Notes under the pieces: model-generated | The model's database searches: none | Told to the model about the DNA's origin: nothing | The model's input: the letters and a program-made list of their open reading frames with translations, nothing else | Translations under genes and position numbers: made by a program | Source: Dromaius novaehollandiae | Lineage: Eukaryota; Chordata; Aves; Casuariiformes; Dromaiidae | Length of the DNA: 64,000 nucleotides | NCBI RefSeq assembly: GCF_036370855.1 | Contig: NC_088099.1 | Location: forward strand, 150,245,517-150,309,516 | Direction: 5' to 3' | In this document: positions 18,801-64,000 of the stretch, piece by piece | Layout: every line of letters begins with the position of its first letter | Position numbering within the stretch: the stretch's first letter is position 1

Positions 18801-20982
18801 GACTTGGACATGCAAGCCTGATCCTAAATAGTAAAACCATTTCATAGCTTTTCATAAGTGAGTTCTACAAAGTACAGGGGAAAGAATCATTACAGAATGT
18901 CAGAGTTTAAGTCAAAAGAATCTAAATTCTTCTAGCACTTGTTGAACAGTATTGGAATTGCCCTTTAAAATAGATGATTGCTACAATCATTAAGTTACGT
19001 AGTCTGCATGCAGCACACTGAACATAGATGCAATGCTTTTGTAGTATTTTGTAGGTGAGCAAATAAGACTGATGATTAACACTAAGGATTTTCATGTAAT
19101 TGTTTTCAATTACTTCCTTTTGTACCTACAGGTCTAGGTCTGTGGTTTATACTCAGCTAAAAATTCCGCCTGTCTATGGCATTTTGCTTGGGCTCTGTGT
19201 AGCTGCTTTGGTTTATCACAACAGGTATGGATATATGTTTTCACATGATATTGTTCTAGCTCACAGAGTACACATATACTATGAAAACACTGTATTATGT
19301 AGTACATAGAAATATATAATTTTAGGCTTTACTGGATGTTGGGCACAGTTACTGCATTCAAAATAGCTGCAAGTATACTCAGTTTCCTTACGGACTGAAA
19401 TAGTTGAAATTGAAGAATAGGCCTATAAAGGACCCTTACAGAGGGGTCAAGATTTTTGATTTAGCATTGTTTTAGGAAGACATAGCTTGTATGTATGAAA
19501 GAAGAGGGGGAACGTATTTGGTGAAAAATAGTGACAGTTTGAAAACAGAGAAAAGCCTAACTCTCTTTGAACAAGCATGGTAACTATTACCATCAGGAAA
19601 AGCCAAAAAAAGGCCCCTATGTAGTAAGAGGAGCTGCAAACAATTCTTCTTAGTTGGTTGCTTCCTTCTGTATTCACAGAAATAGGTCTTTGCAGGTTCT
19701 TAAGATTAATTATAACTGCACTGGTGATTTGACTACCTCATTAATTCCTCCTACCTGGAACAATCAGTAAAACCTCAGGTTTGTGTAATTGCTTAGTTCA
19801 AAAGGATTTAGAAGAACTTTGTCAGGAGTAAGTTCCAGGTTCAAAGACCGATTTTTGTGATTTAATGTTCCTATGATAAAATAAGTGGTAGAGAGGCTTG
19901 CAGAACTAGAAAAAACACCCAGAAGGAGCTAAACATCAAGACAAGCATGTAGAAGTTTTCCTGTAATACCTAAAACACAACTTGCATGTGGATGTGATAT
20001 CTCCACTGAAGAAAGTTACTGTGGTGTTCAAGGACTCAAATACACTGAAATGTCCAGTTGCAAATCTCCAAATCTCTGAAATAGCCATATGGCCAAACAA
20101 AGCAACCATCAACCTGATTGTCGAGAATAGAAGAAACCATGAGCAAAGTCACTGGAAACATGAGGGCAAGTTTTGTGCTTACACAGTGTCTAAGAGAGCA
20201 CACTAAACCCTTCCAGATGAAATCCTCTCATCTTACCAAAGGATTCGGTGTCCATGCTGAAGGAGGTTACTTGGGGAAGAGAAATCCACCTTCCAACCCA
20301 GAGCTAAGGAGTGGCTGCTTGGCCACTGGTAAGAGCCTCCCTTCCCAGCTAAATCTGCACCTGACAGCAGTCCCTGCAGCTGCAGCCTCCCTGCCCACAT
20401 ACAGGCAATCTAAAAACGGCATGATCCTCCCAGAGAAGCTCCTGGGCCACCTCTTCTCCATACCCAAATGATCCTTCTCTGCTAGCTTGTGCAGGCCAGT
20501 AACTACAGGATGTGTTTCAGTTTCAAGCACTTTGCAAACCTTAATTCCTAAAAACTCCCAACAGCCCAAACAAAAACTGACCTGATCTATCAAAACTGTC
20601 ATCAAAGACCACTCTGCAAGTCCGCCCGTTGTTCAGGATGGTTTTGGCTGCACCGGGATCGTAACTCGTGTGCCAGGGGGCCAGAGAGGAGTCGTGCCGC
20701 ACGTCCTTGCTGTTGATTTCAATGGGCGACTGCTTGTCCCCTTTGGCAAGAGGGTAGTTTTCATGCCAGCGCGCAGGTCCTGGGGGGAAGCGCAAGGGAT
20801 CGTCACGGACACCCTGCGCGGCCCCAACGGCCGCCGCGACACCGCCCCAACGGCCGCCGCGCGCGGGCTGCGCGGGCCGGCGGCGGGGAGGGGAAGGGAG
20901 GGGAAGGGAGGGGAGGGGAGGGCGGCAGCCCGCGGCCCCGCTCACCGTTGTCGCTGTCGTAGCCCCACAGGGACTGGGCCAT
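9748..20982 (-). CDS. carbonic anhydrase 3 (seven coding exons)
   Basis: CA3 is the cytosolic, low-activity alpha carbonic anhydrase abundant in muscle, liver and fat; it hydrates CO2 slowly and has a proposed antioxidant role. Coding parts (minus strand): 20946-20982, 20582-20779, 15589-15707, 13537-13629, 11533-11598, 10853-11008 and 9748-9867, giving 789 bases and 262 residues. All introns are GT-AG and exon sizes match the family. Zinc ligands are His95, His97 (in HLHW) and His120 (94, 96 and 119 in CA2 numbering). Glu107 and the GSFTTPPC loop with Thr200 are present. CA3-specific marks are Phe199 (CA2 position 198), Arg68 (67), the [12 protein letters not shown] stretch and the [10 protein letters not shown] context. 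The proton-shuttle His64 of fast isozymes is replaced by Arg65. The start is set by Met-Ala-Gln before the conserved WGY motif. It is transcribed away from the CA1-like pseudogene and towards the expected CA2. CA13 or CA2 are much poorer matches. Confidence 0.96.
9868..10852 (-). other. CA3 intron 6
   Basis: A 985-base intron between exons 6 and 7, with donor GTAAAT and acceptor TTGCAG. It holds an exact 149-bp tandem duplication (10115-10412). No other feature is recognised. Confidence 0.9.
10115..10412. repeat. exact 149-bp tandem duplication in CA3 intron 6
   Basis: Positions 10115-10263 and 10264-10412 are identical by eye, with identity running one or two bases further. Complete identity implies a recent event or an assembly artefact. 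The unit length is not a multiple of three and it lies entirely within the intron, so the coding sequence is unaffected. The unit resembles no repeat family I know. Confidence 0.95.
10853..11008 (-). CDS. CA3 exon 6
   Basis: 156 bases, 52 residues, starting GKEAPF and ending SPDQ. It carries the substrate-binding loop [11 protein letters not shown] with the catalytic Thr and the CA3-type Phe before it, and the conserved RDYWTY. Two cysteines of mammalian CA3 in the segment before RDYWTY are replaced here by Ile184 and Ser189. Donor GTAAAT at 10852, acceptor AAG at 11009-11011. Confidence 0.96.
11009..11532 (-). other. CA3 intron 5
   Basis: A 524-base GT-AG intron with no internal gene, repeat or unusual structure noticed. 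Confidence 0.85.
11533..11598 (-). CDS. CA3 exon 5
   Basis: 66 bases, 22 residues ([11 protein letters not shown] to IKTK). The usual exon 5 of cytosolic CAs encodes 21 residues (63 bases), so one extra residue lies near the N-terminal part of this exon. The frame stays open and both splice sites are canonical (TTGCAG / GTATCA). Confidence 0.95.
11599..13536 (-). other. CA3 intron 4
   Basis: A 1.9-kb GT-AG intron. Open frames here are short. No repeat family or nested gene was recognised. Confidence 0.8.
13537..13629 (-). CDS. CA3 exon 4
   Basis: 93 bases, 31 residues, starting [11 protein letters not shown] and ending VGIFLK. The first His is the third zinc ligand (CA2 His119). The [12 protein letters not shown] stretch is the core beta-strand of the fold. 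Canonical TTTTTAG acceptor and GTAAGT donor. Confidence 0.96.
13630..15588 (-). other. CA3 intron 3
   Basis: A 2.0-kb GT-AG intron. It contains AT-rich low-complexity sequence at about 15303-15342 (alternating AAATATTTT units). No nested gene is recognised. Confidence 0.8.
15589..15707 (-). CDS. CA3 exon 3
   Basis: 119 bases, standard for the family. It encodes [19 protein letters not shown] and [19 protein letters not shown], with two zinc-ligand histidines and the Glu that orients the catalytic threonine. The split first codon (G from exon 2 plus TG) gives Val. Acceptor TTGCAG, donor GTAGGA. Confidence 0.96.
15708..20581 (-). other. CA3 intron 2
   Basis: A 4.9-kb intron, the largest of the gene. 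It contains a 27-bp imperfect tandem repeat near 17958-18009, an exon-like open segment on the plus strand at 19132-19224, and an unexplained minus-strand open frame at 17455-17706 (83 codons). None of these resembles a family I recognise. Confidence 0.8.
17958..18009. repeat. 27-bp tandem repeat, about two copies
   Basis: The unit CCTTTTCTGAATATATG plus TTAAGGTATA occurs twice in direct succession with near identity, inside CA3 intron 2. Confidence 0.8.
20582..20779 (-). CDS. CA3 exon 2
   Basis: 198 bases, standard length. It encodes the CA signature GDKQSPIEI and ends in [17 protein letters not shown]. The Arg in NNGR takes the place of the proton-shuttle His64 of CA2 (Lys in human CA3). 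The exon is CpG-rich and lies in the island. Acceptor CCCCAG at 20780-20785, donor GTCAGT. Confidence 0.97.
20780..20945 (-). other. CA3 intron 1 with G-run tract
   Basis: A short (166-base) GC-rich intron, donor GTGAGC. On the plus strand, 20881-20922 consists of repeated GGGGA/GGGA units. The plus strand is the template for CA3, so any G-quadruplex would form on the transcribed strand. Confidence 0.85.
20881..20922 (+). repeat. polypurine GGGGAAGGGA tandem tract
   Basis: At least eight G-runs of three or more, separated by one or two bases, fitting the G-quadruplex pattern. It sits inside CA3 intron 1, within the CpG island. Confidence 0.85.
20946..20982 (-). CDS. CA3 exon 1 (coding part)
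   Basis: 37 coding bases, [12 protein letters not shown] plus the first base of Gly. The WGY motif is the N-terminal mark of cytosolic CAs. It is one residue longer than human CA3 before the Asn-Gly. The ATG context has GCC just upstream. This ATG is the only in-frame start compatible with the family length. Confidence 0.95.
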
Positions 20983-21044
20983 GGCCTCGGCACCTCTCTC
21001 GGCGGCTCTCGCAGCACGGTGGCCTCGCCTCTCCTCCCCCGCGG

Positions 21045-21053
21045 CTTTTTATA
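21045..21053 (-). promoter_or_regulatory. CA3 TATA-like box
   Basis: Minus strand TATAAAAAG about 65 bases upstream of the CA3 ATG, which would place transcription start near 21020 and give a short 5'UTR. A TATA box within a CpG island fits a tissue-regulated gene. Not confirmed by transcript data. Confidence 0.7.
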
Positions 21054-21660
21054 GACTCCCGCGGCTTCACGTCCTGCCCTGGGGCGGGCGGGCAGTGCGG
21101 GCGGCCGTGAGGAGGTGGGCAGCCGCCGGGGGCGGGCAGAGCCGCGCTGCCGCGGGGGGAGCCGGGGTCCCCGGGGCCGGGCCCGCCCTTCCTTCCCCGG
21201 GAGCACGTTTCATCCCACCCAAGGGGATAAGCATCGATTTAAACCCGATTTTCGTCCCCCTTTGCGAGGCAGAGAGATGCTAATGGCACTCAACGGTCCT
21301 CTTCTCCTTGTGCTGTAAAACGTCTCAGTCTGCCCTGCCCCGGCGAGTCCGGCTGATGCAGGAGCGGCAGTGGCCGGCTGCCTGCGGCCGTCCGGGGGGT
21401 GAGGGGGTGCCTGCCTGCCCCACGGCCCCATGGTTAGAGACAGGGACGTGGGCGGTGGCCGACCCCGGCGGGGTGCACAGGAGCAGGGGGCCGTGGCTCG
21501 GGGGGCTGCCGGGCTGCGGTGTCGCCGACACTGGGCTGTGATGGCTCCCCGCCTCTGCCGTGGGGCGAACGGGGGGCTCCGAAGCCCCACGGCCAAGGCG
21601 CGCGGTGGCCTGGGTGCGGCTGCCCCTCTGCGCAGGCCGGGGTGGCGCGCAAGGAGCTCG

Positions 21661-43900: not shown

Positions 43901-45189
43901 ATGTTTTTCAGTTTGGGGTGGAAATTTTCCTCTGAATGTTTACATTCTGCTAAGTCCTAATTTCTGAATAAAAAAATTAACAGAAAATTGCCATCCACTG
44001 ACAACTGAGAAGCACCTAAAAGCTATTATATTTCTAGGTATCAGTGCCACAAGTTCTACAGGTTATAACATTGCTTGCACAATAGTATCTGAAATTCCTG
44101 TCGTCAGCTGCGGACGTCTGCAAAACCAGATATCAGTAATTTCCTATTACCGAGAACAGTCTGTAAGAAAAACAGGAAAATGTCAACAGGTTCCATTTTT
44201 GCAACTCAGGATGACAAGGCAATGCTCACATAGTCTGTGATAAACCTTATTTTATATAGAAATAATTACTCAATATGATCAATTCAAATGGTTACAAATA
44301 GAGATAATAGTAGAAATATTTAACCGTGCAGCAGGACTTGTAAAGCATATGGTCCTAAAAATACAATCCTGCCTTTAAGTACTTATGAGACAGAGTTTAA
44401 GCCAAGCAAAATCCCAAATGTAGTAGTAGAATTTAGCTTTACAATGAAGAGGGTCAAGATGTGATATCTTATTACTGAAGAGAGAGGTGAGTGTGTGTAA
44501 ATCTTCTCAAAGTTCATGACGGGCCCTACTTCCAAAGAGAACTTCGAGTGCTGTACCTCAGCTGTGCACTTCAGTAGGTATCAGTCCTAAAGAAGATGAC
44601 CTTAAAAGTTCCTATCACTACAAAAATGGCTTGACATAATTCCCAAAACAGCTGAAGCTGGTAGGACTTAGTACGTTCTGGACCTCCTCTTTTATTGAGA
44701 GCATTTCTAGTAATATTAAAGTGATATTTAGTAATATTATCAATCATTTTATCAGACATTGACATTATTATTTGCTTTCCACCACTAAAAACCACTGAGA
44801 TTGATTTTTTTTTTTAGTCAGTGCCTAAAGTTTAGGGCCCTTAATCCACACATGGATTAGTCATTGACATGAATTTTCAAAAAGGCTGAGCATCCACTGA
44901 TTTACACATAGGTTGCACTCTTATACCAGAATTATCCTTTGGCTTGGGAAGGTTGAGTGTAGAAGTCGTTCGTCAACTTCTGAACAGTTACAATGATGTA
45001 TCTTTTAATTTGCCATCTAACTCATTTCATACCTATCTTAATATATGTACTGAACCAAAAAGTACACAAACTGCAAGCCACTGTTCCCTTATTACAGTCC
45101 TTTCTCTTATCACAATTTCTTATGCCATTCTGAAATCATATGAAATCAATAAAGGTTGGTTAGAAAGTGTTACTGTCTTTACTGTTGAG

Positions 45190-45223
45190 TATCTTGCAAG
45201 CAGAAATATCTTGCAAGCAGAAA
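45190..45223 (+). repeat. exact 17-bp tandem duplication
   Basis: TATCTTGCAAGCAGAAA occurs twice in direct succession (45190 and 45207), followed by an A-run. Confidence 0.85.
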
Positions 45224-45459
45224 AAAAATGGCAAATTTGAACTGGAGTTATCAAGGCAACAATGGTAAAAACTTTCTTTAATAGCAGATCAAATTTATTT
45301 AAAATATATGGAATATTCTTTCCTTTTCCTTACAAAAACTCTTTAGAATGACATTGGGTATTAACTTATCAAATACATCTGTTATGAATACAATTAGTTT
45401 CAAGGGAAAGTGTCACAAATTCAGCATTGATATAGAATTTAAAGTAGAAAGCTTCAAAT

Positions 45460-45483
45460 TTTTATTTATTTATTTATTTATTT
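45460..45483 (+). repeat. TTTA microsatellite
   Basis: About six TTTA units directly before the acceptor of pseudogene exon 2, where they form part of the pyrimidine-rich tract. Confidence 0.85.
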
Positions 45484-45490
45484 TGCCTAG

Positions 45491-45686
45491 CACCTGACCA
45501 CTGGCACAAGTTATACTCTATTGCCAATGGAGACCATCAATCTCCTATAGATATTAAAACCAAGGAAGTCAAAAAAGATGCTTCTCTGGGGCATCTCAGG
45601 ATCACCTGGAAGCCTTCCACATGCAAAGAGATTGTCAATGTTGGACATTCTCTCTATGTGGATAGAAGATGAGGATAATCAATCAG
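45491..45686 (+). pseudogene. CA1-like pseudogene exon 2
   Basis: 196 bases against 198 expected. The frame is open from the acceptor CTAG to VGHSLYVD, then meets TGA at 45670-45672. After the break an alternative frame reads EDEDNQS up to the GTTAGT donor, as expected for the family, so a net loss of 2 bases after GTGGAT explains it. His64 is present in VGHS. Confidence 0.88.
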
Positions 45687-46863
45687 GTTAGTAAAAAGGC
45701 AATCTGGAGAGGGGAACTGGAAACATTTTTTCAATCTCTTCTTCTTGAATTTGTATTGAAAACAAGACTAGTGGCTTTTCAGGAGTATTTATATGGCTCA
45801 GGGTATGTGTTCTGATTTTGGAAGTTATACCAGCTGCCAGTACCCTTTCAGTGTCATAGAAGATCCAAATTATGTCCTTTAAATGTATGATTTCTTGACA
45901 AGTCTTTCTGTGCTAACGTCAAAAGGATTGGTGATTTCCCAGTAGGAAACCTCCAGGATAATCACTGATTTTAGGGGGTGGACAGTAGGAGGAGAATTTC
46001 TGAACCCAATAGGGCTTATGTGTGCATTTGTTTGTTTAACCAACATGGGCTGGGAGATTTATACATATACCAACATTACTAACATGTATAACTCCATATG
46101 GAATCACTCTGGACTACGTCATTTTCTTCAAAGAGCCTTATTACCTTGATAGCAAAGGAGGGGATTTATATGTTATATTTATATGTTGTGCAAATACTAC
46201 TGCAAATACTGTCCTACAAGAGCACCAGGCATGTATTTCTAAGAATCATGCACAAACAAATACAGGTCCCTATCAGCACAGTGGGAATGAATACAGCTTT
46301 ATGTGCTTTTAATCAGAGGAGCAGTGATAATGACCTAAAAACAACACCATCAATAACATCCAGGTACACCTGTAACATTTCATAAGTTAAATTCAGAAAA
46401 CATCAAGTACCCATAACTATTACCTCTGTGTAGAAAGGGACTATTAAATACTGTCACAAATGAGACAAATTTTAATGGGAGGTGAACTCCATGAGGTAGG
46501 ACTCTCTAATTACTCTTACTCTGGAAAACTGCTGTTTTTCTACTTTAGTTTTCATTCTACAGTAGCTGGTCTAGTCACATGTATTTGATCTGAATTTTGG
46601 AACTGTATCGTGGAGACGTGCGGATTTACTATACCAAAGCACTCTTATACACCTATTCAGAATTGAGGCCTTCAATAACTTTGGCTTAACTGCACAGACT
46701 TTTTTCTTCTTCTACCAATGGCAAAAAATAGTCTACTAGATAAATATGTTAACCTCTAGCTTTGAGAAAAGTGTTTGCATGTTATGAAATCTTTGAAATC
46801 TATGAACCCTGGCTGTCAGGAAGACTTTATTGATTGTTTTTAGCTTGTTCTGTGCGTTTGCAG

Positions 46864-46981
46864 TGCTGGCTGTGGTCCTCTCACTGGAAACTACAGATTG
46901 TGCCAGTTTCACTTCCATGGGGGCCAAACCGATGACCAAGGCTCTGGGCACACCATGGATGGGGGGAAAGAGGCCTCAGAG
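46864..46981 (+). pseudogene. CA1-like pseudogene exon 3
   Basis: 118 bases against 119 expected. After a missing base close to the start, the frame reads [15 protein letters not shown] then [16 protein letters not shown]. Two zinc-ligand histidines are kept. The conserved Trp after the second one is Gly, and Glu106 is Gly. Acceptor TTTGCAG and donor GTAGAG remain. Confidence 0.87.
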
Positions 46982-48920
46982 GTAGAGTCAATGAAAGAGA
47001 CATCAAAGGCACTTTTTCAAACTCCAGTCACGTATCTCATCCCCAGAAGAAACAAAATTACATGTGTAAACTGCTCTGATAATTATTTTATTTTGCAAAA
47101 CAGCACCATCTCTGCACGTGCAAAGCTGACTTGACAAAAGCAGGTTAGGATCTATGGTCAGTACTCAATAAGATAATTTTAGATAATCTAAATCCCTGTT
47201 AAATAATGAACTAGTGCTTAAAAGTGCATGTACACAAGTGAATAGCACCTGCTAACTTCCCAGGGGTAAAAAGGTCACATATACAGGCACATTGAGCTTT
47301 AGACTCAAGTAGCTGCTTTTCAAAGAGTCTGATCACTCAGTTCCCTGCTGTCATTGTAGCTGGAGATACACAGCTCCTCACAGGTACAAGCGTACTGATT
47401 ACTGTAAGGTGCTGTTCTTTGGCATTTTAAGAAGAACAGCAAATAAGAAGGAAAACCAGAAGAAAATAATGAAGAGAAAGAGGTAGGAAAAAGTACTTAA
47501 CAAGTGTCCCAGCTGCTGTCAAGTACATTAACTATCCTCAGATAATGAAGCAAGGTCCATTTTATAGGAAATAAACCCCTATAAACTCAATTCTTTTCAT
47601 TTGTTTCCCAGTGACTTAGTATCATGCCATTAGTTAACAAGATGCCAAAAAACAATCCATGTTCAATCCATGTAATGTTATCTTTGGCAGATCTTTAGAT
47701 TTTAAGAACATTACTACATGCAAATCTAATGAGACAGATTAGAGTATTCATTTTTAATTTAGGCATTAGGAACACACAGCCAAAAGTGTGTTCGTAATAG
47801 GAAATTTTCCACTGTTGAGAGTGCTAGAGCTATCTCATTTCATACAGCCAAGATATGAGAGGGGTGTTCCTTTGGAATTGCTTCCTGCCATAAAGAGATA
47901 GTGCACTTAGGCTGTGTTTGAGCAGCACACGATTAAAAGTGTTTATTAATTTTCTTTGAATCAGTGGTTTAAAATGCTTCATAACAATAAAGATGTTACA
48001 TTGAAAAGACAGCAATTCAGCTTTAAAATGTACCTGAGGATTCACAAAGGTGAAACCACAGTTTTAAAATTGTTTGCATTATATGATGATTTCCATGCTC
48101 TGTCTCTAATTTTAGAACCTCTCCCTTGTGTTTTAAGAAGCTTTGATAATTTTTGTGACCATGTTGCTTAAACATTATAGAAATAATCCCGCACTAGACT
48201 AATGCCATAGAGTTACACAGATGCTAAGGAATTGCTAAGTATGCTTCAGCATTCATGGATGAGAAGGCTTTTCAAGAAATTATTACGATTTCCAACTTCT
48301 GTAAGTTTTGGAAATTTTTATTTCACACTTGAAAAATAAGATATAATAAGCAACATACTAGGCTGAACGAAAGTTTCTTGAAACTCTTTTAAAGGAAATA
48401 CTGCCAAAACTGCAAAGTTGCTGAAAGATCTGTACTGAATATATGTCAGTCATCCACAGCTATGATGTTCATGGCTATACCAGCAGTCTGTTGCAGTAAA
48501 TGGAACTATTGTGAATAAATGGTGCACCCTGTGTGACACAGGGCTGAAATGCTATTTAATCTATTGCATTTTTAAAGACATGGAAATAAAAGCATGCACA
48601 GGAGACTGTTAGAGGTAGAGTTAGAAAAATCTATGCCTCTTGTAAGTTGTGATTTTCTACACCTCTGTGTACTTACCCCTAAATTGCTTTCAAGGATATA
48701 TGCAGTTCTGCCTACTGTGAGATAAAGCCTGGGTATCGGCACTGACACTGCGAGAGCAATTCAGCAGAACGCCAGAAACCAAGAGGTGTTCACGAGCACG
48801 CTCGCGCTGTCAGGGTTAGACTCGCAGAGCGCCGAATGCAGTTTCTAACGTGTTTTACTTTAATTGCAGCATTTCCTTGCTCTAGAACCAGCAGAATTTA
48901 TCCTGTCAATTGCTTTTTAG

Positions 48921-49016
48921 CTTCATCTCGTTCACTGGAACTCAGACAAGTATTCAGGCAGAGCAGAGGCTTTCGACAAGCCAGATGGTTTGGCAGTTGT
49001 CACTGTTTTCCTGAAG
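48921..49016 (+). pseudogene. CA1-like pseudogene exon 4
   Basis: 96 bases with an intact frame, [18 protein letters not shown] through [11 protein letters not shown]. The 32-residue length is that of CA1 and CA13 and one more than CA3. The third zinc-ligand His is kept. Acceptor CTTTTTAG, donor GTCAGT. Confidence 0.9.
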
Positions 49017-49912
49017 GTCAGTTAATGACGTCCTGAAAACACACGTATCTGTCTTCCCTATCTTTCTCAAAGTTGCACTCAGGACTGAAAATTAGAAAAA
49101 ATACATCTTTGTATTAAATCGGTGGAGATGACTATCTCTTATCCTGGTTTAGACCATATTGCCAACTTTGCCCATGCTTCTACATAGGTGTTTTGCCCAA
49201 CCCCCCATTTCACCCATACAACCTTCAAGATCTGTGCTTAAACAGTGTGGTTGCTAGTGAGCTTGTGCTGTTTCATCCGCCTTCGTGACAGTCAGTGCTC
49301 ACACCTTTCGTGTGTGTGTTTGCTTTTCACTCCATTTACAATTATATGAACTTTCACAGAAAGACAGTTGCAGTCACCTGTGCAATTACTACCAGAAAAG
49401 AAATTTTTAAATCATAATTCCAAGAAGCCTTGAAGCCACGTATGTGACATATTTGAACTTTCAAAACCAACCGAGGCAGCATAAATAATTCCTTATGACT
49501 ATATAAGGAAATGCCATATAGCAATATTATATTATAACATAGTGCTAAAATATAATTGTTCATAATTCACGTTGTAAAAAAGATACCAGCAAACCATCTC
49601 TCTGAATGCTTCCAAAGAAAAGTGCATTTCAAGCATAAACACCACCGCTGCAGAGCAAAGCAATCATATACCTCTTAACTACAGAGTAATATTCCCACTA
49701 CTGGTGGCATTAGTTTGCCAAACAGAAAACATTGCTTGCAGCAAGACATCTTGTTATTTCCCCAAAGTTCTAAATATTATCTCCTTCATATGGGGTCTGC
49801 CCAACTAACCAGCATTTGCAAAGCATATTCATATTCTTGGGAGGAAGATGTTCTTTTAGAATAAAACTGTTGTTACATATTTAGGATTTTAAAAGTATTT
49901 TTACATTTACAG

Positions 49913-49975
49913 TTTGGTTCAGGCAATGAAAACCTGAAGGATGTTTTGAAGGCCTTGGATTCAGTAAAGACTAAG
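49913..49975 (+). pseudogene. CA1-like pseudogene exon 5
   Basis: 63 bases with an intact frame, FGSGNENLKDVLKALDSVK. The acceptor TTTACAG is good. The donor is GC (AAG followed by GCAAAC) in place of GT. This may be a point mutation or a tolerated GC-AG site. Confidence 0.87.
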
Positions 49976-50976
49976 GCAAACATCCTTACAGCCTGGTCAT
50001 GATAATATGCAGAATAGTTAAATTAAAACCTACTCAGTCTCTCATCTGCCTGTGTGAAGGCTTCAGAGTAATTCAGAGAGTCAGCTGCAGGAGGCTGTTG
50101 AGACATGGGGCTGAAAGCGTCTTCCTGAACATGAGCTTATAGGAGCCCATGAGATATTATTTATTCTTGAGGCTCTACCCTGTAGATGGCTGTGGGCTCT
50201 TGGTGAAAGATTAAGAGTTCTTATTTCCTGATTCCTAGCTAATCCTATGCTTCCATCCATCTGTCTGTCTATTTAAAATTATCCCTGGTGTCTATCATCG
50301 GCACAGCCTAGCAATAACTGAACTGAAGTTTTGCTTGGTGGAGGAGGGAGAGGAAATGAGTAACATCAGAACTGCACCTTTCTTAAGCTCTTGTGTAGAC
50401 TAAACCTCTGGCGGTTCCCACTAAGCCTCACACATAATAAGCTGAGATAGGATCTGCATTTTAGTGGGCATGTTAAAAATACAGTACTGCATCTCCCATA
50501 GGAGGAATGTGGGCTTTGACCCAGAACATGCAAACACTATAAATATATGTGATATACGTTTATATTTTTATATAAAATTAGCCTTGTCAGACAAATTTAA
50601 ATTAATTATCTACTGAAGTGTTCCACTTGCTCAGGAGCATAGAGTTCAGTATCTTGCAAAAAGGAACTCCTTAGTCAGTGCTGACAGAAACTTTCTGGTA
50701 TCCAATAGCTGTTTCAGGGTTTTTTGTTTGCTTGGTTGGCTGGGCTTTTGTTAAGATATGCTGCCCATTTTTGTTGGTGTCAGCCTAGATCTATCTCAGT
50801 GTCAAACTTGCCAACAGGGCCAGCAAATCACCTCTGATGCTACGAGAAAATGCTAGTGTTTTGAAGTCACCTCCTCTGTATTTTGATTTAGGAACACACT
50901 CCCTTATAGTCTCAATTTTATATAAATCATATCTTCCTCATGGATAAGCCTCATTAACTCTATGTATCTTCCAAAG

Positions 50977-51132
50977 GGTAAGCAAGCACCACTTTCTAAC
51001 TTTGATCCTGCAAGCCTACTGCCTACATCCTTGGATTACTGGACCTACAACAGCTCTCTGACTCATCCTTCCCTCCATGAGAGTGTTATCCGGATTATCC
51101 TCAAAGACTCCATTACTATCAGCTTGGAGCAG
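50977..51132 (+). pseudogene. CA1-like pseudogene exon 6
   Basis: 156 bases with an intact frame, [33 protein letters not shown] and ending ITISLEQ. The catalytic threonine region SLTHP is kept. The conserved Trp of the following strand is Arg (VIRIIL). Donor GTACGT is good. Confidence 0.9.
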
Positions 51133-52565
51133 GTACGTATTGCAAACAAAAACCTCTCTTGTCTTTTAGCTTCAGTGACAGTATCATTTTACAGTGTATT
51201 ATCATTTTCTATTAGGTTTATTTATCTCATTTTTACTATAAAACCAATATTACCTTTACACCACATTATTATTCATAATAAATACCTATGATTCTGCCTC
51301 AGCCCACTTAGGCTACTAACATCTTACACAGTCTTGTGGGAATTGAGGTAAGAAGACTTCAGATTTGTGGACTTGCTTCCACTGCTCAGGTAAAGGCTGT
51401 TCACTTATTTAATTTCCTTGCAGTGCTGTTGCTCCCAGAGCAGAAGCCAGGCGGAAAGCTGATTTCTTCCCATCTTCCTTCCTGCATGACTCCCCCAAAG
51501 AAATGCATATTCCCATCAGATCTCAGCCAAACACCTGCCTGAGCAGGGGGGGTTGTGGCATGCCACAAAGGTCAAATGCATGGAGCACGGTTCTCCTTTC
51601 AGTGCTGTTATAAGTGGTTAGAAACTCTACAGATTGCTCACCATTTCCTAATAATGTCTGTAGGTCTAGCTAAAAACATCTTACTTCTGTTTCACCTGCA
51701 TCATCTAATAAAGAACGAGGTACGTGCACTAACATATGTCCATGCAAAAGTAAAGTACCTGGATCTGGTTGTACATTAAAGTCACACAGTTCCAGTTCCA
51801 GATTTCACTTTTTTTCTTCCCCCCCGCCACCAAGCAGAGCAGTACTTAGCTTTGTAAATGGCTCCAGCAGTGACAACTGAATTATTCAATAACCAACAGT
51901 GGCAAAGGTCTGAGGAAGGTAAGGTCAGATTTTACAAGGAACACCATCAAGCATTAGAACAGAAACTAGGTTTTTAGGTGACCTCATTATGTAACTTTAA
52001 TAGTATTTAACTAAAGTGATGAAGTACCTTCATTAAATTACACTGGTAATTATTGTCTGTTGGGAAACCCTAGCATATGTTGCTACACAGTTTCTTTTTA
52101 ATGTTTGCATGCCTATGACTATACAGCAAAAGTGGTGCTGTAAACGTTTACAGTTCCTCACATTTTTTATAAGCTACAGAAAATTTTCAAATGCTTCTTC
52201 CTGACATATTCAAAAGTAAAATTGCTTTAAATGCAAAATACCATCTGCACTGCATGTCAGATACATTCAGTAGGACACATGCCTTGATCTGCTCTACTCT
52301 TCAGTCAGCCAGTGTGTGAATCCCACGACTGGAGCCATAAGGACTTGGTCTGTGACTGTGATTTCTTGAGAATTGCACCATATTCTAGTGGCAATGGCAT
52401 CAGAACAGAAGAAACTAATTACTCACCCTGATTAAATTATCCTGTACCTGTTTTGCTTCCATGTCATTGCTGCATTTCTGCATGGTGCCATTGGCCTCTT
52501 AATCATTACATTTAAAGTATAATGATAGAGGCAAGACTCCAACTTAATTCAGTGCAATGCATGTA

Positions 52566-52615
52566 CAAAATAAACATAATAAAATACATAAATACATAAT
52601 AAGATACATAATAAA
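52566..52615 (+). repeat. AT-rich imperfect tandem (ATAATAAAATAC-like)
   Basis: Repeated AATAAAATACATA / ATAAGATACATA units over about 50 bases, a simple-sequence region. Confidence 0.75.
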
Positions 52616-55600
52616 ATCATTCCTACACCTTTCTTTATTCCATTTCTAAACAGATGTCACATTTATGGATGACTTCACATGAAACAGGTCTGAGAGAACC
52701 ACATGCAAATTTACATCTAAAAGCAGAGAGATCATTTAGTCTTACCCTCCTTCTCCTATCTTAGAACTAATGAAAAATGGTAATGAGTTTTTTAAAAACA
52801 CAGAAAAGTGAACACGAACTACAGATACTCACATGGTTGCTAAAATTTATTTCTTGAGCTTAGTCTTGAGACCTCTGCCTTTATAAACAAGAACTGCCCT
52901 TCCTTAGAAAAGCTTCTTTTCCTAAGAGCAATCCCCAGTGCAGAATCATATGTAAAATGGGAACTCACCACTCAAAGGTATTCTCTACTTCTGTGGAGAT
53001 TAGAAAGAATCAAAATTAATTCAGAAGAATACAATTAATTAAAAGGAATGCAAACCAACAGTCAGTCAGACATTCCTGCCATCCGCATCAGCAATATCTA
53101 TTCCTATTACCTTATTTAGCAGAGCCAGTAAAGCGCCGTTAGCTCTTTCTGTCCACAGACTTATGCAGAGAATTACAAAGAGGCCGCTAATTCCCTCAGG
53201 TAATTGATACCTTCTTAATGAGCAATGCTGCAACCACCCCACTTGTCCCTGCCTTAGTGCAACAACTGTTTCTTTCCTTTAACTGCCATGAATAGGGAAA
53301 TAATCATTTTCATTCCTCTCAGTTCTCTGAAAATAAATCTAATCGTGCTTTTGGGGAAAATGAGAACAGAAGCACAGCTATTTCCAGTGCATGGGCTTCA
53401 GAGGATATGTTTTCTTTGTGGAGACAAATAATTTAAGTAAACTTCACAGAGAGTTCACAGTAGGCACACATTTGAGAAACGGGAACAAATCTGTTAGGCA
53501 AAACAACAGGTTCATTAAAAAAAGGTGTTTCATTCAGAGTCTCTTTGCAGAGCTAACTAGTTTCCTGAGCTATAGCGTGCAATTTCTCAGACTGAGCGTG
53601 GGCCTGAGCTATGGAGTCCATCAGCCGGAAAGCTCTGCATGTGGGCACGAGGGTGGCAGCAAGCTGGCAGCTACAGCTACCCGCTCACCTCAAGTCCATC
53701 TTCAGCATAAGTGACTTTACCCCATTTCTTCTCCTGCAAGTCCTCTGATAAATTACTTTAACAAAATGCCAATGAAAGCATTAAGTAGGAACAATGGCAA
53801 AAATCAAATGGATCGGATTATGACCAGTGGGAAAATGAACAAGCAATTCCAAGTTGAGGAAACTGTAAGGCAAAGGAAATGTCCTTGATATGTGATCAAG
53901 GAAAGGCAAGCTTGTAGTATCTCAAAACTTTGACTACCAGTTAAGCAAAGATCTCTTATCTTTATGGCACAGAAAGAGAACAAAATACAAACAGGATTTT
54001 ATTTTGAGACATAAAGCTATCCCTGTATTGACATATACTGATACTTCCTGGCAATATAAAAAAAGAGAAGGAAAGGAAAATTACCTAATGCAGTAGTTTA
54101 AAGAAGCGATTTCTCAATGTGAAACACTTGAGAAAATTCAACAGACAAACATAAGTATTTTAAGCTTTATTTTGAGAATATCTTTTTCTGCCTTAATCAG
54201 AATGAATCATTTTCTCATCTGCTGCTCAATATCTTATCCATACCTAGAAATATTTCGGTGTCTGTGTGCCATGCCAATTGCCAAACCCAACAGTAAATCA
54301 TCTATAGTCCCAAATAACAATAACACAGGCAAATGCAAGCTACCACTTACGCAACTCATGCTGCAGAACTTCTCCTAAGCTTTTCTTTATCCTGAAAAGG
54401 ATTAAACTGCTTCATTCTGCTAAAGTAAAGTTCCCTCAGGTAGCCCCACAGCTGTGGAAAAAACAATTACACTTAACATTTAGCATCTGATCAACAGGCT
54501 TCTGGTCAGGTTCCAGCAATACCTCCCATCTCTGGATGGGACAGCTCTAACAGGCGCATTAACTAGGACTCCTTCATTAGGAAATAAAATTGTGTTAGTT
54601 AATGTTCCACACTCGTTTTTGCTTTAGCAAATCCTTCCTGGTTTAATTTTTCCTTCATGCTGAAGGAAGGAGTGCACTGTTATAAACATGTAGGTGGTAA
54701 AGGAACGATGCAGAGCTGGTTGCCTAGAGCAGGTTAGAAAAGCTACCTGCTTTCAGTGTATTCTGCTGGGTTCTGTTTCTGCTTGCATGGCAGCTGCTGC
54801 GTGTGGGGTATGTTCCACAGCTTTACAGGAAAATATCAAAACATTTCTTTTTTAGAAGCTGGAATTCTTGACCTACTGTTGCTGGTCCTGCTTTTCCGTC
54901 TTCCTTTTCCAGCCTTTTATCATCTAGTTCTCTCCCTCGGTGCTGGCTAAATTATTACGGGATAATAAAATTCCTGAAAATCCCATTGGAGAAATTTTCT
55001 TGTGTAATACAGATGTTGGTTTAATAACAACATTCATTTCCAGAAATAAAACGTACCATTATGGAGACCTCTGAGTGGACAAGTAAAACATAATGTTTTA
55101 CTACACTTGCTAATTCACATTGGCTGCCAAACCTCTGAAAGCAGTGTAAGTTGCATTCAAGTAGGGGGAAGCACCTGCTAAAAAACTGAAATGAATGTAA
55201 CAGGGGTGTCTTCATGCATTATGGAGTAAGCTTAGAGTCTTAACATTTCGGTAGAGTACTTAGTTCAGTCCCAAAAGCCCTGAAACTACCTTTTTTAGAA
55301 ATGTTTCTCAGAAGGGGGATTATACTCCTACTCATAGAAAGGATGTAAGCATTCAGTAGAAGACTGGAGCCGGCGTCTCCTCTTTCCGTGATGAATTCCA
55401 AGGCCGCTAGACTACAGAGCCCGGCTCATAAACGCTTGTTGAATCATGGGACTGTTCTTTATTCCCAGGCACAAATTTGCTATGCCAGCTATAGAGGCTG
55501 CAGCACAAGCCTCCCGGTGGGATACTAAGCTTCTAGTCCTGTGATGGGTCTCAGCCATGCGTCAGAGCAGTGCCCGACCCGCGCTGTTTCCCCACCAGCT

Positions 55601-56599
55601 CTGCTGTCAATAGAAAAAAACCCAGAGGCTGGTTGGACTTCTATTTGCAAGATGGGTGATGCAGATTAAAATCCAGTTTACCACAATCCTACAGAGATCC
55701 TTGTATAAAAGGAGTGCATCCTTGCTCCCATCTCTCTTTTGTCTGGGGCTGATGCGCTCCGAGCAGACCTGCTACATAAGCCCTTACAGATGAGACAGCC
55801 TGAGGAAGGCCTAGGTAACGGCTCCTGGTAGAGTTTAGGGACTTTGCCATAGGGTCTATAGATCTTTTGGAAATGGAAAGACCTTGTACAGGAAGTCTCC
55901 CTTGTTTCACAGCACTTACTGGCAATCCTCTGCATCACTGATCCTCTCTGCAACAGGTGAAGCAACGCTGGGAGCACAGTGCTCAGAAAGCCCAGCAGCA
56001 TGGTACAGGAAACTCAAGGAGCAGAAGCAGCTAACAACAATGCTGGCTGGTGCAAGCAACCACTTAAAACTGAAGTCAATCACAGTAGGTCATTTAGAAA
56101 ATGTCAGAATGTGATACTACATCTTGAAGCTTTTAAAATTATTTTCCAAGACAAACCACTTGTTAAAATCACTACATTCCCTAGCTATTTTGAAGTTCTT
56201 AATTGCATTGCTTAGCAAAAAAAGACGAAAGAAAAGATTTGCTGAAAAAGTCCTACCAGGATTAATGGTACACTGCTGCCTATGTTAAGGTAAGGCATTA
56301 CAGCCTCACTGCACACCCTATTCAAGTTTTTCTGCGTTAGCACGGAGGTCAAGTAAAATGCTTTCATTTTTTGACTGCTTAATCCTTAGCCATTTAGTCT
56401 TTTGCAATTCTCTGAAGTAAGCAAAAGATAACATCATAAACACTGTAAAATCAACAAACTGAATTGTACCACAAAGTCCACCATAATATAGCTAGAGTCA
56501 AGTCAGCTAAAGCGGTAGTTCTGTAGGACACGTACACCACTGCGGTTTTGTTCCTGTCAGTTCAATGTAGTGTGACTAATTTCTTTGAGAGCTATCGGT

Positions 56600-57500
56600 T
56601 ACTCGGTTACGGCGCGAAGGCTGCCAAAGGTGTAAGGTTCCTCGCAGAAGGGTGCTAAAGAACGAGCCAGGGGACACCGAAGTGCCGGCCGCCCCGCGGC
56701 ACCACGCACCCTTCGCCCCCCCCCGGGCCTCGGCAGCTCACAGCGCGGGACCGGGAGCAAACGCTGGAGCTGCCAGAGGGCTCTCGGGTCCTGGGGGTGT
56801 CTTGGCAGCCCAGTGCCTGGGAGGACTCAGCATGCCTTTGCCATTTTGAGATCAGCAACAGCAGCGGCGCTTTCTGCTCCTGTGCTCCGAAACGAGCACT
56901 TCCCTCATGGCTAAAGTATTGCCACCTGATCCCCTCTTTTTATGTCTATTACATTCACTTCCTATTTTGTCTGTGGAGCACCGCCGCTTGCTTTTGGATA
57001 AATCCAGGAAATCAAGAGGCTGGACTCTTATCTCTAGTATTCACTGCACCATGCAGCGGTAGCAGCTACTTTGTTTTCTCATAAACACAAATCTGAGTGG
57101 AAATTTAAGAGAAAACTTGGGAAAAAGCCCAAATTTCTCTCTATCCTCCCCCCCAAGGTGGAATCAGATTCATTCATCACATACCCTTTGAATAGTAGTC
57201 ACCCCTCCTCAGCAAACCCATGAACTTACATCGATCCTGCCCAAGCAGGAGAAACTTGAGCATGACCAAAGGGGTGACTGAAGGTGGTGCGAGCACCGTG
57301 GCTCCTAGCGTGTGTTGCTCTGCAGGGGCGATGGCTGCTCGCGCGATGCCCCCGTAACGGGATATGGCAGTGAGGTTAGCGTGGTTCCTCCGAAACAACG
57401 CCGCAGAATATGGCCTGACAGATGGGCCTGTGGCTCAGCTATGCGCGCCCCGTGCCAAGGTTGGGCCCGCGGCGTCGTGGCCGCCATTGCGTAACTGAAT
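56600..57500. other. two GC/CpG-rich patches, possible unidentified promoter
   Basis: CpGs cluster at about 56610-56830 and 57290-57490, in contrast to the AT-rich surroundings. A minus-strand frame starting with ATGGCGGCC at 57487 stays open for 60 codons. A 10-bp inverted repeat (GTAACTGAAT at 57491 and its complement at 57568) flanks the next part. No family was recognised; a promoter of an unannotated or non-coding transcript is one option. Confidence 0.3.
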
Positions 57501-60500
57501 TTAGCCCCGGCAGAGCCCCTGGGCCACAGTACTCACAATGCAATGAAACCCCAGCTCCATCTGCGACATTCAGTTACAACAGTAACATAATAATATGAAC
57601 CAGTATAAAAGACCAAATCATTCATTGCCAATATCGCAATATATAGAGGATACACGTCCTCCTGCCCTGCTGTCAGCTCGCTCCTTCAGCCGCAGCTGTG
57701 TTAATCAGGAGGCGATAGCAGAGGAGCTGGGAAATCTGTTCATCTGGGCTGCTCATTAAAGCCAAACTGCTTCCTCGTGATAAGGAGACACCAACCCTTG
57801 GCACACAGACGGTGCGCAGTCAGGAAACATTTAGATTTACCTTTGAAAAATGCAGTAGGACAAATTTGGTAGCAGTGGCACAGAGAGCCATCAGTGACTG
57901 ACACAACAAGACCATGCTGTCCTATCAAGCGGTTCCCCATGAGGACAAGCAAGGAGCAAGATACCCACTGCTGCTTCTGCACTTCCACCCAGGAGAGGTG
58001 TGCTCCACAAGCAATGGGGCTTCCTTGCAATCCTCTGGTGGAGGCCAAGTCAGCATGTTCCCACCTTCCCTCACCAGGCTGTACACTCTTCCACTGATTC
58101 CCACTGCCATGAGTTGTAGTCTAATACCATATTTCAAAATTATATTTCTAAATTGTCTTCATGGCACCATCTAGGCCATTTCTGCAGAGGCACCATACTT
58201 TTGAGGCATGATCTAATGGAACCATTGTGTTGTCTACCTATGAAAATACACATATGCAAGAAGAATGCCTGAAATGGTCACACTCCTTCCACTATTCAGA
58301 GTGCTTTCAGCCCTTGAACAAGCCCTTTACATTAACTTTAAGTAGGATCCTTATGAGGCTGCCAGCTATCAGCATTACCTTTTGTCTCTTTCCATTACAC
58401 CTCCCACAGCAAAGTCTGCAACTTGGGATTCTTTTGTGATTTGGTCAAGAGAAAGAAAGCCTCCAGGGAAAGCCTCCAGACAGCTTTGGATAATTATTGC
58501 AAAGGAAAGCTTTGCCAAGTCCTACAGAATTGTTTCCTATTTATTTCACTCATCGTACCCTGCTTCTGGCCTCCTAGGTTTTCCTGGTATGAACATTGCT
58601 GACCTATCTCTGATCCCCTAGTCCTCCTTCCAAGTATTTGTTGTATGCACATTTCTTTCTTCAAGTGACATTTTAACTCATTTGAGCATATTTGATTGAT
58701 GAGAGAGGGGCGGAGAACAGATGTTTGGCTCAAGCAGTTGCAAGACCAGACGCTTATGTGCAGGAGCTCAAGCTCTAGACCTGTCTCTGAAATCTTATTT
58801 CTGTGATACTAGAGCAAGTTAGGCCAATTGTGGAAGGAGCAGAGACTGAATTCAAATAAATGATTTAAAATAACTGCACTGTACGTATCAAGAAGTACCT
58901 ATTAAAACCTAATAATGGTGAAGAGTGTGATATATACACCATTCATATTCATGTTCTGTAGCTCTCCAAGCATAAAGGGATATAGTTATTCCAGTAGGAT
59001 GGTTAGACTAATACTAAGATTCAGCATGTACTCCTGAACCCCCATGCCTAAAGGTTATGCTTTGAAATCTTTAAGCATTGCAACAGAAGTGAACCAAATT
59101 GCTGCAGGCAGCAGCTGCTGTTGAGATCTCTTTGGTCGTCAGTACTTCATGAAAATTAAAAGCTTCTTTTAAAATGGTTAAATTAAGCTCCTAATTTCAG
59201 GAAACCACCTTGAAAATATTTACATTATGTGACTAGTGCAAAGCCACCCAAAAAAAAAAAAACCACTCCCAGAGTTGCAAAGTTGGGAAGAGAGCACAGC
59301 ATTTCTGCCTTGATCTCCCACACTAGAGGTGGTTCAGCCCCAACCATTAAAACACAGCTTTCCAAAGCCAACTTCCATTGCTCTCCCTAAGACAGATACG
59401 TGACCCACCCCGGCCTGAAAGTCAGCTCCTTCCACCCCACCCAGTCTTCCAGGCTGTGAACCAGGAGGCCCCTCTCTCCCCATAAAGAAAGCAGTTGAGA
59501 CAGGATCCAGAAGATTTATTTTGGCACCTAAAATGAAACTTAAGCTAAACGTAGGTGGCTAAATTCAGTAAAGAATTCCAGAAAGCGTATGCCAACCCGT
59601 CTCTCTCATTTATGAGCCATCTAAGTATCACTGTTGCGCAGGAATGCAGTGTGCGGTGGTGCCCACACATCAGCCAGCTTACAGAGACTTAAGTGTCCAG
59701 ATCTAGTGGGGACAAGGCGCGGAGGCTCCAGTGGGACTCAGAAGGGGGAGAGGCCCTCGTGAAGCCCAGTGTCATACCACCAGGCCCAGCACTCAGCACA
59801 CACGAGACAGGATCAGGGCTTGGGCTCTGGCCATGGTCCTTTCTGCTGGGAAACTGTTAGGAAGCTCCTCAGCGTGGTTTTGGCAGGTGTCAGTGAGCGC
59901 TGCCTGGGACAGTGCCAGGCATGGTGGCGGTGGAGCATGGGCCAGCGACCGTCGTCCATAGGCCTTGTGGAGAAAGGGATCCACAGACCATGTGTTCAGC
60001 GGTACACATGCAGGGCATGCTACAACCCTTGCTCTCGGGACCGGGAAGCAGGCCCTGGCCTGTCTCGTTTACCACGATAGCCAGACTTACCAAGTTCACT
60101 GCAAAGCACAGCAGACGCACTCACTTTTCTATCTCAAAAAGCCTGGGGTGTTAGTAGTTAAAACATTCCTCTGAAAAGCAGGTGGCTTTTCCCCCCTGAG
60201 GCAGAGGAAACCCTGTCGCTTCTGCAAGTGCCCTAACCAGCAGGCTTTAAAAAAGGCCATCACAGGGCACCTACTCCCTCTCCGGTGCAAGCAGCAGCCT
60301 GTGCAAGCAGGGATGCTCCTGGAGGCTAGCGGAGGAGCCGGCTCTGCAGCCCTGCAGTCGGGCAAGGGCTCTGGTTTTCAGAGTATTTATTTACACCGCA
60401 CAGTCGGGAAGCAAAAACTGGAGTCCGCCACTGGAGTCAGTCCTGGGAGCAGGGACCGAAAACTCATCTCCTCTCTCGTCGCCCACTCCTCTTTCCCTCT

Positions 60501-62642
60501 GCCCTTTCGTTCACCTATGCCTGCCAGCAAAACGTGGTCCCGGCTTGCTCAGTTTCCCAAAAGAGCTTCACTCTTACCTAAGTTGGCACTGCTGTGAACA
60601 CTGTCCTCTTCCATACGTTACATGATGCCACTAGTTCTTAATGCGAACTCTCCGCTGTCATAACTGGATAGCACTTACACAGCGGATGTGATATTGCACC
60701 TCTCTGTAAACTCAGAAAATATAATAAAAGTTCTAGCAGTGAGAACACGCAACAAAATCATTTCTTTCTATCTGTCTAACCACTTACTCTGCTAGTGGTT
60801 TTGTGCTTTGGCTGGGTAGCTTTTCTCTTGCCAAATGGGACGGGTATCTCTCACAGCCAGTAACAAGCATTAGCTAATGTTTGTACTGTGCCTACCAATG
60901 GTGCTAAAGATTAGAAGTGAAGCACATCTTAGGACTCAAAAAAATGCATGTTAAATAGCTGACTCAGTGCCCAAACTGGGACAAGCCCTGAGTCTGCAGA
61001 GGCTCAATATAGCCTTAAAATCATAATAGAAAAAAGCCCAGTACAGATATGTAAGTAACAGCATGGAAAGCACAGCTAAGCAGCAATATACGTTTCGGAA
61101 AAGGAAAAGGGGCTTTCTCTGCTTCAATACAAAGAATTTCAGTCCATCACATTTTCCTCCTGCATGAATTACTGTAGGTAAAGCACAAAAAAAAATTATT
61201 AAATTTAATCCTTTTTAATCTTAACCGTTTTTAGCATAAGCGTAGCGCAGGTGTCTTGGCAACGTTCAGGCAGTTTTGTCACAAGCTACAAACACCCCTG
61301 AACATATTGCCTGGTGCAACACCCCCTTGCCCGTCACGAGGGAGTAGTGAAGCACCACCATCAGGCTTCGGTATTATTTAGGCAATATCGCACACGGGCA
61401 GGGCGTGTCCCCGAGCACTGTTCAGCCCTGATATCCCGGATGTTCCCACTCCGCTGTTGGATGGCCACGTTGCAGGACCAGATTATTTCCTGACTGCTGT
61501 AACGCAGCAGGGGTTAGGTACACCCTCCACACACCAGCACGGGGGGATCCCAGCGCAATGGAAACATTGCCATGGAAGCCAACAGTGCCTGAATTTCACT
61601 CCAGTTCCTGCTGTCTAGCTTAAGGCATCTAATATAACATACCTGAATCCGGCCCCTGGAACACTTCTGCAACTGTGCAGGAAAGCTCTGTCATTTGATA
61701 CTCTAGCGAGCACAGGCTGGTAATATAGGTTTTTAAGTTAAATGTCTAAGAATAAATGGTGTCAATGGTCTTTAAGAATCTGATAGTCAAATTTCACTTT
61801 TTACTGTTCAGCAAAACAGTATTTTGTTTCACTAGATGCTCAAGGTGCAGTCCGTCTTGGTTTATTACTGATCCTGCTTGAAAACTCAAATGAATTAGTT
61901 GCACGATGAGTTCAATGCTCGGAAAACATTTTAGACTTAAATTTCTGAGTTTTTTGACTTACCCAATAAATTATATTTAAAAAAAGCAGGACGGAAAGGA
62001 AGATTTTGGTAGTCTGTTGTCCTGTTCACAATTACATTTTCCATCTTTCCATAATGACACAGATCCATTTCCAGTTAATACATGTTTGCAGTTTGACTGC
62101 ATGAACCAAGAAGCCTGCCTTGGGGCCTGACCGGAGGGTAGGGAGAATTTAGTCTCCAAATTCAACAAAGTCATCAAGAAAGCCCACAATACTTTGCTTT
62201 CCTAACTGTAGAGCCACCTAAATTCAGTTAACACCTGTAATCTAGGCTGCTTAAAATGAAGCTCAAATCTCAGATGTGATAGAAACCTGTCCAGTACAGT
62301 TCTTGGGTTCAGTCCTCAGTCGGAGTAAATTGCTTCTTGGTTGACTTTGACAGTTCAGCAACCAAAGATCTAATTTGTCATGCAGCTTCATGAGATTATC
62401 AAAGACCCAATACAGCCTTTAAGCTACACTTCAGAGACCTCCACCTGGCAACCCGCAGGAACCGAGCACTCTTTGCCAGTCAGAGATTTAACTAGAAGGC
62501 AGGCACACTTGTGACTGGGATCTCAGCAGCACGCTGGTCTCAGCATGCTTCACTATGTCTACTGCAAATATTTGACATAGAAAAAAGGGGTGAAATCCTG
62601 TGCATGTGTTTAATTACAGGGGATGATATATCTTGAGCCTGA

Positions 62643-62661
62643 TTTTTTTTTTTTTTTTTTT
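62643..62661. repeat. poly-T tract
   Basis: An uninterrupted run of 19 T, with no recognisable retroposon body next to it. Confidence 0.75.
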
Positions 62662-64000
62662 AAGGAAAAGGACTTCAAAGCTCATTTAAGTGATTTAAAA
62701 TGTCAGTATTTAGTGACTGGTTACCTGGATTCTGATTTGTTTTAAATTTCTTTTTTTTAATCCTTTCTTTTACAGTTGATGTCAATAGTCAATTGTTAGT
62801 GTTCCAAGATTTCTTTTAGTTCCTGAAAGATCTTCATTTTACCAAGGAAAAATTCCTTCTCTATTACAAAGCAAAGATTAGAAGCACCTTTTGCATTGTG
62901 AAGGACATAGCATTTCACTATTTATTTCCTGCCTTAAACTCTACAAGGCGACTGACTCAGTAGCTGGGCCTGGAGAAGGCTCATCTCCCTCCTCCTGGGT
63001 TGGTTTTTACCCGTTATGGTGGACAGCCGCCCTGTGAAAGTGGGAAGCCGTCCTGAGGCAGGGGATCGGACTGCAGCCTGGGCTACCTCCCCCGGGGCCT
63101 GACGCCAGGGCTGTGTGCACCAGGACAATACCTCCACTAAAGCAAAATTATAAAAAATTTGAAAGTGAACTCACTGTTTTTAATATTTTTAAAAGTTATT
63201 TAATTTCTGATGTAAAGGCAACGTTTTGATGCATTAAACAGAATGAATCTAATTAATCTGCACTTGCCTGAATTGTTGTAGTGCTTTGTAAAAAATATGT
63301 TTTCGTCACCTTCTGATCCTCTCCCCTGGGTGTGCTGGGATTCCTGCCCTGGCGACACCTTTACGATACCATCTTTTCCTCTGGGTGAACCACCATCAGG
63401 CACAAGAAGTGCAGTCCAACCACAGGCTCATCCTCCATCCGAGTATGTGTATAAAGCATTCAAGTCATAACTAAAACCCAGGCACTGATGCACTTCACAC
63501 ATCCACCACTCCGCGTTTTCTCGGGAGAAGCCGATGCTGGGGTACATTTCATTTAGCTTGACGAAACCGCATTAAAGACAATGATCTCTGAGCTAGTCAC
63601 CCCAGGAATCAGCATCCGACCAGATGAAACCCAGCCTAAATGCTGTGTTCCTACAGAGAACGTATTTCATTTGAACTGAAATATCAGATATACATTTCAG
63701 AATTTACTTGAGGACAAAGTTTTCAGGAAGGGGCAATAGTTTTTACTAGACCAGTTGATACATTTGGAGAAACCTGAAAGCTCCTGCAGATTTGAATTTA
63801 TCATTTTAATTTGCTGTTCTGTGACAAATGGCACATTTTGACTTTTTTTCTTCTTTTTTGAAACAAAAAAAAGGGTCAAATTAATGAAATTGTCTATGGA
63901 CAGGACTTTTAACTTTTTAGTGCTTTTAATTAATTAATTTTCAATGACACTGATAGGACCAATACACTTAACTCAGACTTCCACAGAGCTGCCTAAAGGT

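Follow-up and report, generated by a model that had tools for sequence, protein, structure and literature searches.

A stretch of 64,000 nucleotides (nt) of avian DNA (contig C2, positions 150245517-150309516, within a 1.47-Gb genome), referred to below as the window, carries what the sequence supports as a CA1-type carbonic anhydrase (CA) gene broken in place. The gene, here termed psi-CA1, spans 45228-51132 on the plus strand and retains six of the seven expected CA exons (37, 196, 118, 96, 63, and 156 nt in length), in order and with their introns. The features discussed below, numbered from the first letter of the window, are these:

45228-45264, plus strand: psi-CA1 exon 1; ATG, 12 codons and one base, intact GT donor (phase 1)
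45491-45686, plus strand: psi-CA1 exon 2; 196 nt, net loss of two bases near 45663, CA1-type Val62 kept
46864-46981, plus strand: psi-CA1 exon 3; 118 nt, net loss of one base near 46872, zinc ligands His94 and His96 kept
48921-49016, plus strand: psi-CA1 exon 4; 96 nt, open, zinc ligand His119 kept
49913-49975, plus strand: psi-CA1 exon 5; 63 nt, open, GC donor instead of GT
50977-51132, plus strand: psi-CA1 exon 6; 156 nt, open, GT donor, CA1-type His200 kept
51133-64000, plus strand: region expected to hold psi-CA1 exon 7; searched on to 77140 in adjoining DNA, no exon 7 found
9748-20982, minus strand: intact gene CA3a, the divergent neighbour of psi-CA1; seven open exons, AG/GT splice sites

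Lesions and exon structure of psi-CA1

The two frame breaks are apparent from exon lengths shared by all four intact paralogues of the cluster (CA2, CA3a, CA3b, and CA13): exon 2 measures 196 instead of 198 nt, a 2-base loss, and exon 3 measures 118 instead of 119 nt, a 1-base loss at the start of the exon. Translation runs for 72 codons into a TGA at 45670-45672, followed by a TAA at 45676-45678; both stops arise from the exon 2 shift alone, and the joined exons carry no other. Together the two indels amount to three bases, and the frame is therefore open again from exon 3. Neither indel falls within a long homopolymer run. Three residues that are invariant in the ten other aligned rows are all changed in psi-CA1, namely Trp97 (to Gly; codon GGG at 46919-46921), Glu106 (to Gly; codon GGG at 46946-46948), and Trp209 (to Arg; 51091-51093 in exon 6). 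Exon 6 also carries Pro202Ser, and the donor after exon 5 reads GC (49976-49977). The zinc histidines His94, His96, and His119 are kept, as is Thr199. Compared with an active alpha-carbonic anhydrase, psi-CA1 thus falls short in its broken frame, in the loss of Glu106, and in an exon 7 that was not found. These results agree with the initial annotation of this DNA, which had described exons 2-6 with introns (45491-45686 through 50977-51132), net changes of -2 in exon 2 and -1 in exon 3, an in-frame TGA (located within the shifted frame), and glycine in place of both Trp97 and Glu106. Frame restoration by the summed indels, the GC donor, Trp209Arg, and Pro202Ser go beyond that description.

The same annotation had reported that exons 1 and 7 were undetectable, which holds for only one of them. 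Exon 1 lies 226 bp upstream of exon 2 and reads MANLNWSYQGNN, compared with MASPDWGYDDKN in human CA1. With a score of 31, it is the sole plus-strand site in 21004-45490 that scores at least 15 and has an upstream ATG and an in-phase GT donor, and none of 100 Markov shuffles reached 31 with ATG and GT (best, 25). Once the demands for ATG and donor were dropped, a site on the opposite strand scored 29, and ATG, donor, and position are therefore all needed for the exon 1 call. The surroundings of this exon (44746-45746) are AT-rich and CpG-poor (GC 0.336, CpG observed/expected 0.071); in the four intact genes, exon 1 with 500 bp on each side has GC of 0.66-0.71 and CpG observed/expected of 0.78-1.13. 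The CpG-poor first exon of psi-CA1 could be either ancestral for CA1 or a product of decay. A CpG-rich island surrounds CA3a exon 1 (20482-21482), as it does in CA2, CA3b, and CA13, and a TTTA simple repeat occupies 45461-45480, directly before the acceptor of psi-CA1 exon 2.

For exon 7, the best plus-strand match in 51133-77140 reached 20.8 bits, within what 30 shuffles gave (17.7-21.6); the four intact paralogues, searched leave-one-out as positive controls, gave 41.2, 51.2, 62.0, and 62.0 bits. About the same interval was also searched with six exon 7 peptides (tblastn), a protein hidden Markov model, a DNA profile (nhmmer), and motif scans, which yielded nothing above background, the best nhmmer match extending over 35 bases (E 0.019). 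Nor did a repeat or transposon behind the loss of exon 7 come to light: 51133-57133 matched only itself genome-wide, in a search that skips very common words.

Assignment to CA1 and the surrounding cluster

To compare psi-CA1 with other isozymes, its exons were read across the frame breaks into a single protein. Aligned end-to-end and gap-free with residues 1-223 of human CA1, this protein scores 288.4 bits, while CA13 reaches 255.6 and the best CA2 254.5. Individual exons behave alike: the best PDB match of exon 2 is CA1 (67.5 bits; best other isozyme CA13, 56.4), and that of exon 6 is CA1 as well (67.3 bits; best other isozyme 60.4). In a tree of 11 rows, in which human CA1 is the sole CA1 reference and the remaining rows come from CA2, CA3, CA13, and CA7, psi-CA1 pairs with human CA1 at a support of 97/94; on this single human reference, the CA1 affinity suggested in the initial annotation is supported. 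Forced alternative groupings were rejected by the approximately unbiased (AU) test, with p-AU of 0.017 for both CA13s, 0.0008 for the bird's own CA13, and 0.0055 for its own CA2, for groups that were picked after the tree was known, a choice against which the test's own note warns. Val62, His67, and His200 are listed as active-site residues of human CA1 in Table 1 of PMC5050428, with Val62 and His200 absent from CA2. Psi-CA1 keeps Val62 and His200 and has Tyr in place of His67.

The position of the gene agrees with this assignment. Going up the contig, five CA genes follow one another, CA2 (minus), CA3b (minus), CA3a (minus), psi-CA1 (plus), and CA13 (minus), so that psi-CA1 sits between CA3a and CA13 on the strand opposite to CA13, CA3, and CA2. 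The human cluster has the order CA13-CA1-CA3-CA2, and both the place and the strand of psi-CA1 correspond to those of human CA1. Each of CA2, CA3a, CA3b, and CA13 has seven exons and an open frame. The initial annotation was therefore right to describe a CA1-like gene divergent from an intact CA3, with which it stands head to head, and to call the decay selective, because all four neighbouring cytosolic CA genes read open.

Searching the whole assembly with exon 6 returned the exon itself and at least seven others, and among the best candidates scored no copy was closer than 58% identity, the value for the bird's own CA13. Combined with retained introns and disabling lesions, the marks of a unitary pseudogene, this makes psi-CA1 a probable unitary pseudogene of CA1 in one bird assembly. 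The unitary gene loss claimed earlier is supported to that extent, for a single assembly and the best candidates scored; a loss of CA1 fixed in the lineage seems likely.

Several further observations concern the neighbours of psi-CA1 and other CA genes of this genome, in which 65 matches to the family model of alpha-carbonic anhydrases occur, mostly single exons. CA3a has CA III as its best PDB match (478.7 bits), and the presence of two CA3 genes in the cluster agrees with the extra CA3 of birds, called CA3b, that is described in PMC5050428. Both CA3-type genes (C2:150211367-150266498) carry Arg67, Arg91, and Phe198; residue 64 is Arg in CA3a and Lys in CA3b, and the CA3b branch is the longer (0.26 vs 0.07). 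The last intron of CA3a contains a perfect 149-bp tandem duplication (10115-10414; two copies, 100% matches), which either arose very recently or is a duplicate introduced by the assembly. The CA13 protein (C2:150322656-150342663) ends in ...REVRRN, apparently shorter than human CA13, and an AATAAA signal follows a few bases past its stop. Elsewhere, one CA gene, which we take to be the Z-linked CA9, occurs on two contigs (L007/L008; C33 and C35) with 99.8% identity over 3195 bp, reflecting two haplotypes or else sex chromosomes (a ratite-like pair) that recombine in this part. Haemoglobin exons of the genome indicate a bird: beta exon 2 differs from chain 3wtg_B (3wtg being from emu) at 2 of 75 residues and has a slightly better score with 2zfb_B, and for alpha exon 2 the best single-chain match is 3wtg_A.

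Constraint, age, and competing explanations

Of the columns that are invariant in the ten other rows, psi-CA1 has changed 10 of 57, while the same count for each of nine other CA1, CA2, CA3, and CA13 rows, with psi-CA1 excluded from the comparison, gave 0-4 of 57-61. Fisher p values against these nine rows range from 0.0006 to 0.059, the two strongest coming from the near-identical human and rat CA3. The terminal branch of psi-CA1 measures 0.49 and that of human CA1 0.20; for three of the intact genes the bird branch is not the longer one (bird/human 0.17/0.22 for CA13, 0.17/0.26 for CA2, and 0.07/0.09 for CA3a). Relative-rate tests with four outgroups counted unique changes in psi-CA1 and human CA1 at 36:18, 35:18, 39:18, and 34:28, and the corresponding counts for three intact pairs (12:20, 19:14, and 19:12) were all non-significant. 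In pairwise comparisons with the paralogues synonymous sites were saturated, hence no ratio of nonsynonymous to synonymous substitution rates is given for the branch.

The tally of decay comprises two frameshifts, one changed base among 22 splice bases, and no stop created by substitution. With frameshifts set at 0.05-0.12 per substitution, the likelihood of these lesions is greatest around 0.02-0.05 neutral substitutions per site, and the chance of seeing no stop is 0.084 at 0.10 neutral substitutions per site and 0.031 at 0.14. At an avian rate of 1-2 substitutions per site per billion years, 0.03 neutral substitutions per site would correspond to about 15-30 million years. The lesions thus hint, in a weak dating, that psi-CA1 died tens of millions of years ago. 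By a hand estimate, about 0.14 neutral substitutions per site would be needed to explain a branch excess of about 0.3 as wholly neutral. These two lines conflict unless the protein was already fast-changing before the break, and we therefore read the data as relaxed constraint that preceded gene death. An older death is possible.

We put the probability at about 0.87 that point decay has inactivated a once-functional CA1 in this bird, one placed and oriented like CA1 of the human cluster. Six of the seven exons are present in order with their introns, and psi-CA1 is therefore no processed copy. If a transcript is still made, it would be degraded or would encode a product of 72 residues that lacks the zinc site, leaving CO2 hydration to cytosolic paralogues that are still intact, CA2 and CA13 among them. 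The overlap of CA1, an isozyme of low activity, with CA2 may have made the loss tolerable; faster change of the protein would have come first, with death of the gene following perhaps tens of millions of years ago. Several results weigh against this account. Decay is light: splice dinucleotides are canonical at 10 of 11 positions, the frame is restored after exon 3, and exons 4-6 are free of stops. CA7 changes 7 of 64 invariant columns, near the 10 of 57 in psi-CA1, and the weakest Fisher comparison (p 0.059) is the one with human CA1 itself (4 of 61). The branch of the intact CA3b is also long (0.26), one of the four relative-rate tests (34:28) is not significant and indicates no acceleration, and the neutral substitutions per site favoured by the lesion count (about 0.03) and required by the branch excess if all neutral (about 0.14) disagree. 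Three of the eight inner branches are weak in the 11-row tree, which has one CA1 reference and no bird or reptile CA1. Finally, raw identity to human CA1 (128/221) barely exceeds that to human CA13 (123/218), with 120/219 for the bird's own CA13.

Such near-equal identities, together with the adjoining position of CA13, would fit the decay of a CA13 (or CA2) duplicate that arose in this lineage, CA1 itself never having been lost here. We regard this as very unlikely, since the tree and the AU tests against the bird's own CA13 and CA2 favour CA1, Val62 and His200 are kept, and psi-CA1 lies on the strand opposite to both genes. Lower still is the credence we give to a functional, altered gene in which splicing at the exon 2/3 junction skips the shifted stretch to produce a non-catalytic CA-related protein like CA8, CA10, or CA11. 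It would account for the compensating losses of two and one bases, for the confinement of both stops to one short stretch, and for the open exons 4-6, and GC splice donors are in occasional use. However, such a protein would lack a normal C-terminus, exon 7 not having been found, and psi-CA1 retains all three zinc histidines, a pattern that differs from that of known catalytically dead CA proteins. The small size of both indels, the otherwise open joined frame, and the single haplotype from which the evidence comes could also point to long-read indel errors within an intact CA1. This we find the least credible of the explanations: neither indel sits in a long homopolymer run, the four neighbouring CA genes read open, and errors of this kind would explain neither the changes at three invariant residues, nor the GC donor, nor the failure to find exon 7.

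Probable CA1 loss in relation to known systems

Decay of a once-functional CA1, the reading we prefer, can be compared with other cases. Psi-CA1 resembles mammalian CA1 in its cytosolic alpha-CA exon layout, in its cluster place and strand, in Val62 and His200, and in a 13-residue start; it differs in its broken frame, the exon 7 not found, and the loss of Trp97, Glu106, Trp209, and His67. Ruminants and felines offer a likeness, as their erythrocytes are described as containing only CA-II, with red-cell CA-I absent (PMC3060127). That case concerns the red-cell protein, whereas psi-CA1 is a broken bird gene known here from DNA alone. STK33, reported in PMC4509753 as a unitary pseudogene in 28 neognath species, is alike in being a gene that decayed in place within part of the bird tree, although psi-CA1 is so far described in one genome. 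CA1 loss therefore looks like a real but ordinary, well-known kind of event, and the absence of CA-I is an already known condition.

The initial annotation had called the lost gene erythrocyte-type, which is doubtful for birds. According to PMC3060127, chicken erythrocytes yielded a single CA-II form of high activity, and chicken intestine a less active CA-I (apparently Holmes 1977); since the same source also refers to nine CA zones in gels from hen erythrocytes, the protein evidence is mixed. The affected tissue in the bird may thus be the gut, to judge from the putative CA-I of chicken intestine. Human red cells contain about 14 mg of CA-I and 3.2 mg of CA-II per g haemoglobin (PMC3060127); given the far higher activity of CA-II, the need for such abundant CA-I is unclear. 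Among the listed titles and abstract openings of the literature searched, we found no report of CA1 loss in birds, and the main text of PMC4290089 contains no whole word CA1, CA3, or carbonic. In the passages covered, a proteome of the chicken chorioallantoic membrane (PMC9237712) includes CA2 and CA13, with no occurrence of the word CA1, and PMC11680404 and PMC11678133 mention CA13 and not CA1.

We tentatively entertain, at somewhat less than even belief, that CA1 worked long after birds arose, perhaps in the gut and not in blood, its loss being recent and confined to this lineage. If this were true, close relatives would keep an intact CA1, and the species would be a natural knockout for the role of a low-activity isozyme. 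The in-place loss of CA1 beside four intact sister genes provides a concrete locus for screening across birds, and its value lies in dating the loss among them. Such a screen would tell whether avian blood came to rely on CA-II along with a single, ancient CA1 loss or along with several recent ones.

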